This document shows positions 3,546 to 8,468 of a DNA stretch of 48,161 nt, piece by piece. Below the pieces are notes generated by a model. That model had not been told where the DNA came from. It did no database searches and saw only the letters and a list, made by a program, of their open reading frames with translations. Position 1 is the stretch's first letter. Each line of letters opens with the position of its first letter. The DNA comes from an uncultured Pelagibacteraceae bacterium (lineage in GTDB: Bacteria; Pseudomonadota; Alphaproteobacteria; Pelagibacterales; AG-422-B15), in NCBI GenBank assembly GCA_902570675.1, contig CACFYZ010000006.1:1-48161 (forward strand). The letters run 5' to 3'. The position numbers were made by a program, and so were the translations under genes.

Positions 3546-5342
3546 CTAGTCTTCGGTAGGAATATATTTTAAGCTTAATTCATTTAACGCTTCCTCATCA
3601 ACTTCTGCTGGAGCTAACATCATTAAATCTTGAGCTTGCTGATTCATTGGAAATAAAATAACCTCTCTTATGTTTTTTTCCTGAGCTAATAACATAACTA
3701 TTCTATCAATGCCTGGTGCAATTCCACCATGTGGCGGAACACCAAATGTAAAAGCGTTTATCATTCCACCAAACTTTTCATTAACTTGTTGTTTATTATA
3801 GCCAGCTATCTCAAAGGCCTTAAACATTATTTCAGGTATATGGTTACGGATCGCTCCAGAAGAGAGCTCGATCCCATTGCAAACAATATCATACTGATAA
3901 CCAAGAATATCTAAAGGATCCATCTCATTTAAAGACTCTAATCCGCCTTGAGGCATAGAAAATGGGTTATGACTAAAATCTATTTTACCCGTCTCAGGAT
4001 TTTTCTCATACATAGGAAAGTCAACTATCCAACAAAATTTAAACTTATTTTTTTCTATAAGACCTAATTCATCACCAATCTTGTTACGTGCGGCTGCAGC
4101 AATATCATAGACCATTTTTCCTTTAGCGCAGGCAAAAAAAATTGAGTCGCCGGATTTAAGTTTTGCTTTTATTGCAATACGATCTTGGATTGCCTCTGGA
4201 ATAAATTTAGCAATGGGTCCCTTACCTCTTAATTTACCATCATTTTCCTCAAAAATAATATATCCTAAACCAGCTGCATTAAGATCTTTTTTAGCCCAAG
4301 AATTGAGATTGTCATAAAAACTTCTTGGTTGATTATGTGTGTTTGGCGCAGGGATTCCTAAAACCTCTCCTCCCTCATTTATAATTTTTTTAAACGCCGA
4401 GAATTCTACATCTTCTTCGACAAACTCATTTGAAAGATTACAAATAGTAATTGGATTACGTAAATCTGGTTTATCTGTTCCATATTGCTCCATGGAGTCC
4501 TTGTAAGTAATTTTTTTAAAAGGCATTTCACTTACATCAAATTTTGAAAATTTTTTAAAGACTGAATAGAGTATAGGCTCAATTGCATTAAAAACATCTT
4601 CTTGATCAACAAATGCCATTTCTATATCCAGTTGATAAAATTCTCCTGGACTTCTGTCAGCACGAGCATCCTCATCACGAAAACATGGTGCGATTTGAAA
4701 GTATCTGTCAAACCCACCAGCCATAATTAATTGTTTGAATTGTTGAGGTGCTTGGGGTAATGCATAAAATTTGCCTGGATGCAATCGACTCGGTACTAGG
4801 TAATCACGGGCACCTTCAGGACTTGATGCAGTTAATATTGGAGTTTGCATTTCCAAAAAACCCGCTTCAGACATTAACTGTCTTATGTGTGATATAATTG
4901 AGGATCTAAGTATAATATTTTTATGTAATTCACTGCGTCTAATATCCAAAAATCTATATTTTAGTCTTATCTCCTCAGGATAATCATTTTCACCAAAAAC
5001 AGGCATTGGAAGCTCATTTGCTCTTGATAGAATCTCCAATGCTTCAACTAATAATTCTACTTTTCCAGTATCAAGACTCTCATTTATTGTATCTGAGGCT
5101 CTTTTAATAACTTTTCCAATTACTTTTATTACAGACTCTACTCTTAAATTATTAACAACATTCAATAAATCTTCTTCAGATTTTTCAATAACACACTGTG
5201 TAATGCCATAGTGATCACGCAAATCAATAAATAAAACATTTCCATGTTCTCTTTTTCTGTTTATCCAGCCGGCTAATGTAACTTTTTTTTCAGTGTCACT
5301 TTCTCTTAGCTCGTTGCAATTATGTGATCTATATTTATTCAT
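3546..5342 (-). CDS. aspS: Aspartyl-tRNA synthetase (probably non-discriminating Asp/Asn type)
   Basis: Class II synthetase that charges tRNA-Asp in the cytoplasm. It has an N-terminal OB-fold anticodon domain (about residues 1-105), class II motif 2 ([15 protein letters not shown]) and motif 3 ([12 protein letters not shown]), and the bacterial insertion domain. Start chosen at MNKYRSHNC (5342), which matches the family; an in-frame ATG at 5363 would add seven residues. The anticodon domain has His33 in RKREHGN, the residue typical of non-discriminating AspRS that also charges tRNA-Asn for GatCAB transamidation; the discriminating E. coli enzyme has Leu there. That specificity is inference. 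It is divergent from rnd with a 35-base gap. Confidence 0.97.
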
Positions 5343-5377
5343 AACTTTGAATTCAAAAAACATATATAGTTTGATTT

Positions 5378-5917
5378 ATGAAAATAGTCCAAGATAATAA
5401 ATCTCTGGTTAACTTATGTAAATTACTAGCAAAACAGCATATAATTTATTTAGACACAGAATTTAAAAGAGATAAGACATACTGGCCTCAGCTTTGCACA
5501 ATTCAATTTAGAACTTCACGACAAACGTATCTGTTGGATATGGTTGATATATTTAAATATGATCTTGAAAAACTAAAGTATATTTTAAGTAGTAATGTGA
5601 TTTTAAAAGTAATTCATTCCGCGAAACAAGACATTGAGGTACTAAATTATACCTTTGGAATTAAAGTAAAAAATGTTTTTGATACGCAGCTTGTATATGA
5701 TCAGATTTTTCATACAGCCACAATTGGATATAGAAATATTGTAAAGAATCTTTTAAATGTAAATCTATCTAAAAAGTTACAGTCTTCTGATTGGTCTCAA
5801 CGCCCTTTAAACTCTAAACAATTAATATATGCAGAAAATGATGTAAAATACTTACCTAAAATATATCTCTTTTTAATCCAGAAAATAAAAAAAAAAAAGA
5901 ATGGTGAGAATAATTAA
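5378..5917 (+). CDS. rnd: Ribonuclease D, N-terminal 3'-5' exonuclease domain (split gene, part 1)
   Basis: DEDDy-family 3'-5' exoribonuclease domain used in tRNA 3'-end and stable RNA processing. The three Exo motifs are visible: LDTEF (Exo I), HSAKQDIEVL (Exo II) and YAENDVKYLPKIY (Exo III, with the DEDDy Tyr/Asp). At 179 residues it stops just after the nuclease core, whereas RNase D proteins usually continue into HRDC domain(s). The frame ends at a stop 19 bases past a run of twelve A (5887-5898). The missing HRDC part is in the next frame starting at 5901. Removing one A fuses the two into a protein of about 281 residues. The fragment may still be an active nuclease on its own. Confidence 0.9.
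   Translation: MKIVQDNKSLVNLCKLLAKQHIIYLDTEFKRDKTYWPQLCTIQFRTSRQTYLLDMVDIFKYDLEKLKYILSSNVILKVIHSAKQDIEVLNYTFGIKVKNVFDTQLVYDQIFHTATIGYRNIVKNLLNVNLSKKLQSSDWSQRPLNSKQLIYAENDVKYLPKIYLFLIQKIKKKKNGENN
5887..5898 (+). other. A12 homopolymer at the rnd frame junction
   Basis: Twelve consecutive A residues lie between the exonuclease and HRDC parts of rnd. The upstream frame reads IKKKKNGENN then stop. With eleven (or fourteen) A the frame runs on as KKKR into MVRIIKEMNL and the HRDC domain. Such a tract is a recognised substrate for RNA-polymerase slippage in AT-rich genomes, but it is also a common site of sequencing or assembly indels; the sequence alone cannot separate these. Confidence 0.85.
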
Positions 5918-6224
5918 AGAAATGAATCTTATAAACACTGAAGTTGGTAATACATTTGAACCTAAATTGGCATATAAACGAATAAAAACAAAAAGCGTTA
6001 ACAGAAATCAAAAAATGCTAATAAAAAAATATGCGCATTGGAGAGAGTTGCAGGCACAGAAGTATGATATACCGCGTAATTGGGTAGTATCTGATAAAAA
6101 TTTAATACGTGCGTCAAAAGAGAGGTTTGACGATTTATTAAAAAATAGAAAAAATAAAGATCAAATGTTGGAACAATTTAAATCCTATCTGAAGTTAAAA
6201 AATTTCTCACAAAAGGGACTGTGA
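5901..6224 (+). CDS. rnd: Ribonuclease D, C-terminal HRDC region (split gene, part 2)
   Basis: Reads as the continuation of RNase D: a linker, then an HRDC-like helical domain with LIKKYAHWRELQAQKYDIPRNW and LIRASKERF, matching the family pattern of L..WRE..A...D.PR.W followed by L...A. This domain contributes to substrate RNA binding. The ATG at 5901 falls directly after the A12 tract and is probably just an internal Met of the full protein, since 'MVRIIKEMN' lies where family members have continuous sequence. It overlaps the end of part 1 by 17 bases and the 3' end of the convergent hdaA by 47 bases. If it is not joined to part 1 by slippage it would be a lone HRDC fragment. Confidence 0.82.
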   Translation: MVRIIKEMNLINTEVGNTFEPKLAYKRIKTKSVNRNQKMLIKKYAHWRELQAQKYDIPRNWVVSDKNLIRASKERFDDLLKNRKNKDQMLEQFKSYLKLKNFSQKGL

Positions 6225-6843
6225 TCTTATTTTTACTTTTCAAAGACTCGTAGTTGAGCGTTTCTAACAATGAGAATAGGCAGAGATAGTCTCTTTCAGT
6301 GCGACTAACAATAAATTCGATAACAGATTTATCAATTATTATTTGAGCATTGCTAAAATATTTTATAATTAAGACTCTTAAGAGCTTATCATCAAGATCA
6401 TTTATTCTAGCCGAGGTAAATGAATTGACACGTGACTCAAGATCTTTGAGTGCAATTTTCTTATTTTTACTAGGATCGATAGCTACCAATATTTTTGATT
6501 TATTCATCACAAGCTCATTATAGAATTGCAAAAATTCTGATTCGTCATCGGATTTTAATAAATGAAAATTATCTATAGCTATATTTTTATTGCTGGTTAT
6601 TGAATTCCAATCATTAATTTCATTACAGTTAAATAAAGCAGCATTGTTATAAGATGACCAAATATTAAGTAAATGAGTTTTTCCTGATTTTGACATCCCT
6701 AAAATTGAAGCAGACCCATTATACCAATTTTCTGTTTCTTTTAATAAAGAAGAAACTTCTTTATTACTGTCACTTATAAAAAAATCATCGGGATTGAAGT
6801 TTTCTATATTTGCTAAATTAAATACTAATTGTCCTTTTTCCAT
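6178..6843 (-). CDS. hdaA: HdaA, DnaA-like regulator of replication initiation
   Basis: Small AAA+ DnaA paralogue that, bound to the sliding clamp, stimulates ATP hydrolysis by DnaA and prevents re-initiation. At 221 residues it has a near N-terminal clamp-binding motif QLVFNL (residues 5-10, compare QL[SP]LPL), Walker A GMSKSGKTH (49-57), Walker B IAIDN (88-92), an arginine-finger region LESRV, and a C-terminal lid/sensor 2 region, without a DnaA domain IV DNA-binding helix-turn-helix. Its neighbours pgsA-like and DUF2066 genes are the usual alphaproteobacterial context. The start is one base away from the end of the upstream pgsA-like gene. The sequence is divergent, so assignment rests on motifs plus synteny. 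Confidence 0.85.
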   Translation of the reverse strand: MEKGQLVFNLANIENFNPDDFFISDSNKEVSSLLKETENWYNGSASILGMSKSGKTHLLNIWSSYNNAALFNCNEINDWNSITSNKNIAIDNFHLLKSDDESEFLQFYNELVMNKSKILVAIDPSKNKKIALKDLESRVNSFTSARINDLDDKLLRVLIIKYFSNAQIIIDKSVIEFIVSRTERDYLCLFSLLETLNYESLKSKNKITVPFVRNFLTSDRI

Positions 6844-6844
6844 T

Positions 6845-7390
6845 TTAATTAATATTTTTTACCCAATGAAAAATATATATAAACATTGATATGGTTGTTG
6901 TTATCATAACAATACCAATTAATACCTCTATTAAATTATAACTTAAAACATATTTAGAAAAACCTTCGGTACTGCCAAGCAATGTTATAATTACTAAAAT
7001 AAACTGAAAGAATGTATTCACTTTACTAATTTGAATTGGATCAACTTTTGTTTCTATTTTAACAATAAATGAAATAATGAAAGATCCCATAATTATTATG
7101 TCTCTAGAGATAACAAGAATAATTATAAAAGTGGGCAATAGATTTAAGGTTCCGATCAAGATAAATATCGAAATTACGAATGCTTTATCTGCAATAGCAT
7201 CTAAATAAGAGCCTAACTCACTCTGAACGTTCCATAATCGAGCTAGTAAGCCATCTAATAAATCACTAAAAGCAATAAGAATTGTAAATAAAGCTGCATA
7301 AAACAATAGGTCTGATAAAAGTAACCATGCAACTATTGGTATAGTTACTAGTCGAAGTATAGATAGTAAATTTGGAATATTTTTAGTCAT
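6845..7390 (-). CDS. CDP-alcohol phosphatidyltransferase family protein (PgsA-like)
   Basis: Integral inner-membrane enzyme that transfers a phosphatidyl group from CDP-diacylglycerol to an alcohol. The signature D-G-x2-A-R-x8-G-x3-D-x3-D is complete in DGLLARLWNVQSELGSYLD followed by AIAD. Most of the rest is hydrophobic with about five membrane segments. Start chosen at MTKNIPNLLSILR (7390), the usual family N-terminus; an upstream Met at 7423 would add eleven residues inside the preceding gene. It overlaps the upstream DUF2066 gene by 8 bases and precedes hdaA by one base, so it is probably translationally coupled. The substrate (glycerol phosphate or another alcohol) cannot be decided from the motif. 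Confidence 0.9.
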   Translation of the reverse strand: MTKNIPNLLSILRLVTIPIVAWLLLSDLLFYAALFTILIAFSDLLDGLLARLWNVQSELGSYLDAIADKAFVISIFILIGTLNLLPTFIIILVISRDIIIMGSFIISFIVKIETKVDPIQISKVNTFFQFILVIITLLGSTEGFSKYVLSYNLIEVLIGIVMITTTISMFIYIFHWVKNIN

Positions 7391-8468
7391 TAATACTAAT
7401 TTTATAGTATGGTCCGAAATCAACTAATCTCATATCCTGCTGGGACAATACAAGTTTAAATTTATTGCGATCACCAGCAAATATAATTATTCCATTAACT
7501 TCGTTAACATCAAATGAGGTTAAATAATAAGATTTTAGAAGCTCTATTTTTTCAAAATTTTCTTTTAATTTTACCCATTGATTTAGATCATCAACACTAA
7601 ATTTAAATTTATATTGGTATTTCTCATCTTCTGCACTCGTACTTTCAATCCATACATTGAGTAAATCATTCTTAATTTCACTGATTATATTATTAAATAT
7701 ATCTTTACGGTATAAATTATAATATTCATTAAAAGTTTTATTTATAACTTTAATTTCATTATTTATCTCAATTTTTACTATTATATCAAATATCATCTCA
7801 TCATTTTTTATATAGGAAGGAGTGCACCAAATAAGTATATAATCTTCCGTTGATTGAAATTTTGTATTTTTACTAAACTCGCCTTCTAAAAATTTGCTTA
7901 CTGAAATTTCTTTCATCTCGGATGAGGAAAATGTATTAATATTAATTAGTAACTTTTCACTTACGTTATTTACTTTTCGCCATTCCGTATTCCACATATT
8001 AAATAACATGAAAAACTGGTCACTATTAGAAAAAGCGACATATGTCTCAATATTTTTAGAATTAATTTCAGAAAATAGTAATGATTGCGAGTCATAATAT
8101 TCCCTTACCCGAAAAGGAGAAAAATTAATATTAAACACAGCGCTGTACAAATCTGTTGAAATTTTTTCATCAATGAATTCAACGCTTTCAACAAAATAAG
8201 AAATATCCAAGTCATCAATTAATAATAATAATGATTGATATCCATTGGAGGATAAAAGTAATTTAGACATTTGCTGAAAACCAATTTTTTCAGCTTTATT
8301 AATTGCACTATTTCTAATATTCTCCTCATTAGAGAATGGAATTTTTATTGTTATATTGCCTGATGAAAAAAAATTATTCTTACCCGTATTTGCATAGCCA
8401 TATGGTAATATTGCAAAAATACAAATTGTCGCTATTGTAAATAGCTTAATAAAAATTTTATTCATCAT
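7383..8468 (-). CDS. DUF2066 domain-containing secreted protein
   Basis: Protein of 361 residues with a signal peptide (about residues 1-26, hydrophobic TIATICIFAILPYGYA). The mature N-terminal half has the DUF2066-type pattern: a beta strand, then NSAINKAEKIGFQQMSKLLL. Family members are periplasmic or envelope proteins of unknown function, found in Alphaproteobacteria immediately upstream of the pgsA-like and hdaA genes, as here. The remaining 200 residues are polar and AT-rich without a motif I recognise. It is divergent from purM with only 15 bases between the two start codons. Family assignment is by pattern and synteny; function is unknown. Confidence 0.75.
   Translation of the reverse strand: MMNKIFIKLFTIATICIFAILPYGYANTGKNNFFSSGNITIKIPFSNEENIRNSAINKAEKIGFQQMSKLLLSSNGYQSLLLLIDDLDISYFVESVEFIDEKISTDLYSAVFNINFSPFRVREYYDSQSLLFSEINSKNIETYVAFSNSDQFFMLFNMWNTEWRKVNNVSEKLLININTFSSSEMKEISVSKFLEGEFSKNTKFQSTEDYILIWCTPSYIKNDEMIFDIIVKIEINNEIKVINKTFNEYYNLYRKDIFNNIISEIKNDLLNVWIESTSAEDEKYQYKFKFSVDDLNQWVKLKENFEKIELLKSYYLTSFDVNEVNGIIIFAGDRNKFKLVLSQQDMRLVDFGPYYKISIND

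Follow-up and report, generated by a model that had tools for sequence, protein, structure and literature searches.

Organization of the rnd locus

The window analysed here is contig 6 (48,161 nucleotides) of a 1.03-Mb draft genome of an uncultured Pelagibacteraceae bacterium, which comprises 32 contigs and is 77.65% complete. All of its named relatives belong to Pelagibacteraceae or Pelagibacterales, most being AG-numbered isolates, and mark it as a SAR11-type bacterium. On the forward strand, an RNase D-like gene (rnd) is distributed over two reading frames that change at a tract of twelve adenines (A12, positions 5887–5898 by direct reading), the next base being G at 5899. The first open reading frame (ORF1, 5378–5917, frame 0) codes for 179 amino acids with a complete DEDD 3'-5' exonuclease domain and stops six codons past the tract. 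The second (ORF2, 5901–6224, also on the forward strand) codes for 107 amino acids in the +1 frame relative to ORF1; its ATG at 5901 stands right after the tract, and a linker precedes its HRDC domain. The two ORFs overlap by 17 bases. The divergent upstream neighbor is aspS (aspartyl-tRNA synthetase, named by reading; 3546–5363, reverse strand). Downstream, a convergent Hda-like gene (6178–6843, reverse strand; PF22688 Hda_lid) is followed by a gene for a CDP-alcohol phosphatidyltransferase (pgsA-like; 6845–7423, reverse strand). All three neighbors are syntenic in relatives: the order aspS-rnd-hda-pgsA includes all four genes in 36 of 38 loci (one gene copy is counted twice, as L035 and L078), and the other two loci end before the last two genes. 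The tail-to-tail overlap of ORF2 with the Hda-like gene spans 47 bases (6178–6224), with similar positions in relatives. No tRNA and no Rfam family was found in the window.

ORF1 matches the Pfam exonuclease profile PF01612 over positions 2–172 of 173 (E = 4.2e-37, 128 bits). ORF2 matches the HRDC profile PF00570 with 24.8 bits at a cut-off of 23.8; for three intact relatives the scores are 23.0, 17.3 and 23.2. Positions 1–170 of the ribonuclease D profile TIGR01388 are matched by ORF1 and positions 177–251 by ORF2, and a single RNase D-like protein of one relative is matched by both (E = 1.2e-64 and 1.3e-26, respectively). The preliminary description had placed the exonuclease and the HRDC domain in consecutive frames at the A12 tract and had read them as one family-like protein; coordinates, frames and Pfam matches bear out the former, and the successive matches to one profile and to one relative's protein, the latter. 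Judged by sequence comparison, it is confirmed that the two ORFs represent one RNase D-like protein in two frames, and a chance arrangement is ruled out. The HRDC domain does lie in the next frame, as described, but does not follow the tract immediately: a linker comes first, and the Pfam match begins some 110 bases downstream, at ORF2 residue 37.

ORF1 also aligns with residues 7–164 of Escherichia coli RNase D (PDB ID 1yt3; E = 2.8e-19), and the residues of the DEDD motif look present in this alignment by eye. A search of PDB with the HRDC half alone gave weak, seemingly unrelated matches only (E = 0.64 or worse). The E. coli protein and the one studied here both have a DEDD exonuclease followed by HRDC, as in TIGR01388; however, E. 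coli RNase D has 375 amino acids, whereas the SAR11 forms have 276–281 and, intact or not, fall short of the TIGR01388 cut-off, and the gene studied here occupies two frames. The NCBIfam cut-off of 298.95 bits is reached neither by the halves (156.3 and 39.2 bits) nor by intact relatives (213.7, 214.2 and 225.6 bits), hence the name RNase D-like.

RNase D-like genes in related genomes

The search of the family covered 53 genomes including the studied one and gave a match in 52. Assigned by E-value, an RNase D-like gene is present in 41 relatives; in the remaining genomes of the family there is either no match or a more distant, NrnC-like one, mostly of 204–210 codons. Three of the 41 copies (in G028, G005 and G033) were left out, with 38 complete copies retained; the contig positions of these three demonstrate truncation by contig ends, so they were rejected as natural short forms. 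Thirty-three copies were found again in a contig scan with identical open frames and were counted once, and two NrnC-like loci (L082 and L083) were left out.

Every one of the 38 complete copies is a single unbroken ORF of 276–281 codons. The A12 frameshift was thus found in none of these relatives, a set that contains no conspecific genome and whose closest RNase D shares 63% identity. Tract length and frame were compared in relatives, as had been suggested, and the gene is whole there, mostly with an A7 or A8 run in frame. Forty of the 41 copies are informative, as one ends before the site; 29 of these have an in-frame A8 (14 copies) or A7 (15 copies) at the same offset in the gene, and in the other 11 the runs are interrupted, shorter or displaced. 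Since A7 or A8 is common in the genus and the split is seen in none of its members, the run was inherited and the change of frame is private to this genome.

The order-wide search covered 297 genomes, 53 from this family and 244 from the sister family. Among the matches listed, one spanning both exonuclease and HRDC was found in eight of the 244 sister-family genomes (genera g5, g7 and g8; E ≤ 5e-32), and nearly all other sister-family matches listed are shorter and NrnC-like. The RNase D-like gene is thus kept across one SAR11 family and rare in its sister family, which looks like a clade-level loss with retention of NrnC-like genes. By this distribution RNase D seems dispensable in the sister family, which would fit tolerance of a broken copy. 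An NrnC-like paralogue was not found in the studied draft genome. Its loss was considered and rejected: its neighbor (KdsD-like by reading) was not found either, so the draft probably has a gap there.

Conservation of the two halves

For both halves, identities of the studied gene to relatives are similar to those among intact relatives. Identity to the gene at locus L007, for example, is 63% in the N-terminal half and 49% in the C-terminal half, and the intact pair L007 and L005 has 67% and 45%, respectively. Of the columns invariant over the 38 relatives, the studied gene retains 44 of 45 in the N-terminal and 14 of 14 in the C-terminal half; for columns conserved at 90%, the respective counts are 63 of 70 and 19 of 19. 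When the 31 members of the genus are taken alone, 3 of 19 invariant columns are missed in the C-terminal half and 4 of 69 in the N-terminal half. Branch lengths of the studied gene fitted on one tree equal 0.581 for the N-terminal and 0.673 for the C-terminal half, a C/N ratio of 1.16 compared with 1.34 for the whole tree. As far as sequence can tell, the HRDC half is without decay or acceleration. If this half had become untranslated, its neutral divergence from that point on would be bounded at about 0.048–0.063 per site (95%) in a rough model that rests on absent stops and unchanged conserved columns, with the part overlapping the Hda-like gene excluded.

The frameshift is therefore either recent or present only in the draft. 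The retained columns and the branch lengths agree with the earlier observation that both halves are conserved, and they rule out an old pseudogene. Conservation of the two halves does not, on the other hand, favor rescue by slippage or a dual product, because a recent mutation and an error in the draft predict the same.

Other long tracts in the draft

The studied genome contains 27 distinct A/T tracts of at least 10 bases (33 overlapping matches). Twenty-four of them were classified, and three on contig 19 were omitted. Among the classified tracts, only the one in rnd parts two long sense frames (170 and 108 codons). At L125 the tract lies between antisense frames of 64 and 100 codons, but the sense frame reads through. 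Two tracts (L127 and L139) are intergenic, and the other 21 lie in frame within genes or at their edges, according to our own reading of the open frames. A second A12 tract of this genome lies in frame in a trmB-like gene (named by reading; contig 1, 118442–118453, L045:1501–1512); it may serve both as a candidate slippage site and as an assembly control. An A11 tract in an apt-like gene was rejected as a second frameshift: it is in frame, and ten relatives from the genus align from residue 2 through the tract.

Tracts of at least 12 adenines are present in 12 of the 43 genomes of the genus, so that such a tract by itself is not rare. There are 14 distinct tracts of this kind, and the 13 others do not part two long frames. 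Long in-frame runs within genes of relatives include A13 at L153:1501–1513 (genome G040; flanked by 174 and 163 codons) and A12 at L148:1501–1512 (genome G025; 72 and 194 codons). Judging from such genes, SAR11 relatives appear to tolerate very long A runs inside coding regions. With the other long tracts in frame, there is no general fault in the tract lengths of the draft, which can render such tracts correctly and could still contain a single miscalled one.

Slippage and ribosomal frameshifting

To reach ORF2, translation has to enter the +1 frame: the RNA would have to lose one A or gain two, or ribosomes would have to shift by +1. A slippery heptamer, A AAA AAG, characteristic of dnaX-type −1 frameshifting, is present in frame 0 at 5893–5899. 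Nevertheless, −1 ribosomal frameshifting was rejected: ORF2 is in the +1 frame, whereas the −1 frame holds no conserved ORF and stops early, after KKKEW right past the tract, and folding near the tract revealed no unusual RNA structure downstream as in dnaX-type sites (z = +1.25, −0.68 and +1.46, with +1.25 for 5899–5970).

A run of nine or more A/T at the frame junction, as the A12 tract provides, is described in PMC5009743 as enough for slippage by bacterial polymerases, and corrected transcripts amount to 12–50% in two endosymbionts (PMC5009743). For the A11 run of Citrobacter tssM, frameshifting of 20–25% and mRNAs with 10–15 adenines are reported (PMC4256274). For A7–A11 runs, the efficiency of insertion is given as no less than double that of deletion (PMC6260861), and one in vitro study of A11, cited there, found deletion predominant. 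Conservation of the frameshift in relatives, another mark of slippage genes, is absent from all 38 complete copies. Because bacterial polymerases slip at long A runs, a leak of full-length product is plausible here, and rescue by slippage with a useful pair of short and long products is possible.

Interpretation

The reading that we favor, and to which we give about an even chance, is a recent real indel in rnd of this lineage accompanied by leaky slippage. A one-piece RNase D-like gene with an exonuclease and one HRDC domain would have lost its frame very recently, when an inherited A run prone to slippage changed in length. From the DNA as given, ribosomes in frame 0 would make a 179-residue protein with the whole exonuclease domain. 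Since long A runs make RNA polymerase slip, both frames would probably be joined in a minor share of the transcripts, and some full-length enzyme would still be made beside the exonuclease-only form. Three steps of this reading are inferred: a genuine indel in the cell, slippage at A12, and stability of both products. The single ORF and the A7/A8 runs in relatives, the gene order, the lack of decay and the in-frame state of the other tracts all speak for this reading; against it, rescue needs a deletion (or two additional A's), whereas insertion is reported as favored in the source cited above.

If the draft had the tract length wrong, the result would be indistinguishable from a recent indel. 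An error of amplification, sequencing or assembly, with a whole gene in the cell and a wrong tract length in the draft, is accordingly a serious rival, which we rate below the recent indel yet consider quite conceivable. It is consistent with the fragmented and incomplete draft, with a frameshift shared by no relative and with the missing signs of decay; moreover, the AG- and AH-numbered relatives and one record named SAG suggest single-cell genomes and hence amplification, possibly here too. Against it stand the in-frame trmB-like A12 and apt-like A11 tracts, the uniqueness of rnd among the 24 classified tracts of this genome, and the 13 other tracts of at least 12 adenines in the genus.

The remaining explanations fare much worse. 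Selection might maintain slippage as a programmed source of two products, a long RNase D and a short form with the exonuclease alone. ORF1 does stop just past the end of its complete exonuclease domain as defined by Pfam, many relatives have an exonuclease-only NrnC-like protein of about 204–210 amino acids alongside RNase D, and an A11 run yields two forms of TssM, both needed (PMC4256274). We nonetheless regard a dual product as very improbable, as the frameshift is private, no unusual RNA fold lies near the tract, and AT-rich genomes of the genus readily produce long A runs. Equally slight credence is given to an A12 switch, by which slippage of RNA polymerase in this streamlined ocean bacterium would draw two forms of RNase D, one exonuclease-only and one with HRDC, from a single gene while the tract length drifts in and out of frame in the population. 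A true gene split, with ORF2 translated from the ATG at 5901 as a second subunit beside ORF1, is highly unlikely: the 17-base overlap is a layout compatible with coupled translation, but two independently evolving genes were looked for and found in no relative, the single ORF in all 38 complete copies being evidence against a split; Met is absent at the position of the ORF2 start in 11 aligned relatives, and inspection by eye shows no Shine-Dalgarno-like motif ahead of the ATG, which only GA separates from the A run.

Comparison with known systems

The poly-A/T frameshifts of Blochmannia and Buchnera, as described in PMC3017870 and PMC5009743, resemble the rnd case in the AT-rich reduced genome, the indel in a long A tract, the conservation on both sides and the lack of acceleration. 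They differ in that the hosts of those tracts are insect endosymbionts and not a SAR11-type lineage, and some frameshifts reported for endosymbionts are conserved (PMC3017870), unlike that of rnd, which is private and known from DNA alone. The closest parallel is Blochmannia vafer, for which eight genes with polyA/T frameshifts are reported, with no rate acceleration in the four that are frameshifted only there; its authors left recent mutation possible too (PMC3017870). In tssM1 of Citrobacter rodentium an A11 run likewise lies shortly before an early stop with a C-terminal domain in another frame, but there A's are gained by slippage and a need for both forms was demonstrated (PMC4256274), while rnd would require one A fewer or two more.

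Overall, the A12 tract in rnd is one more homopolymer frameshift of a known kind in an AT-rich genome, and either a recent slip or faulty sequencing is the most likely cause. As it stands, the finding has little import, the gene being seemingly largely absent from the sister family. Automatic annotation would yield two truncated genes at rnd, which calls for caution. SAR11 is an abundant free-living lineage, and a literature search for SAR11 together with transcriptional slippage retrieved no report among the papers covered. If the A12 tract is real and rescue by slippage is shown, a phenomenon of endosymbionts would be extended to SAR11.
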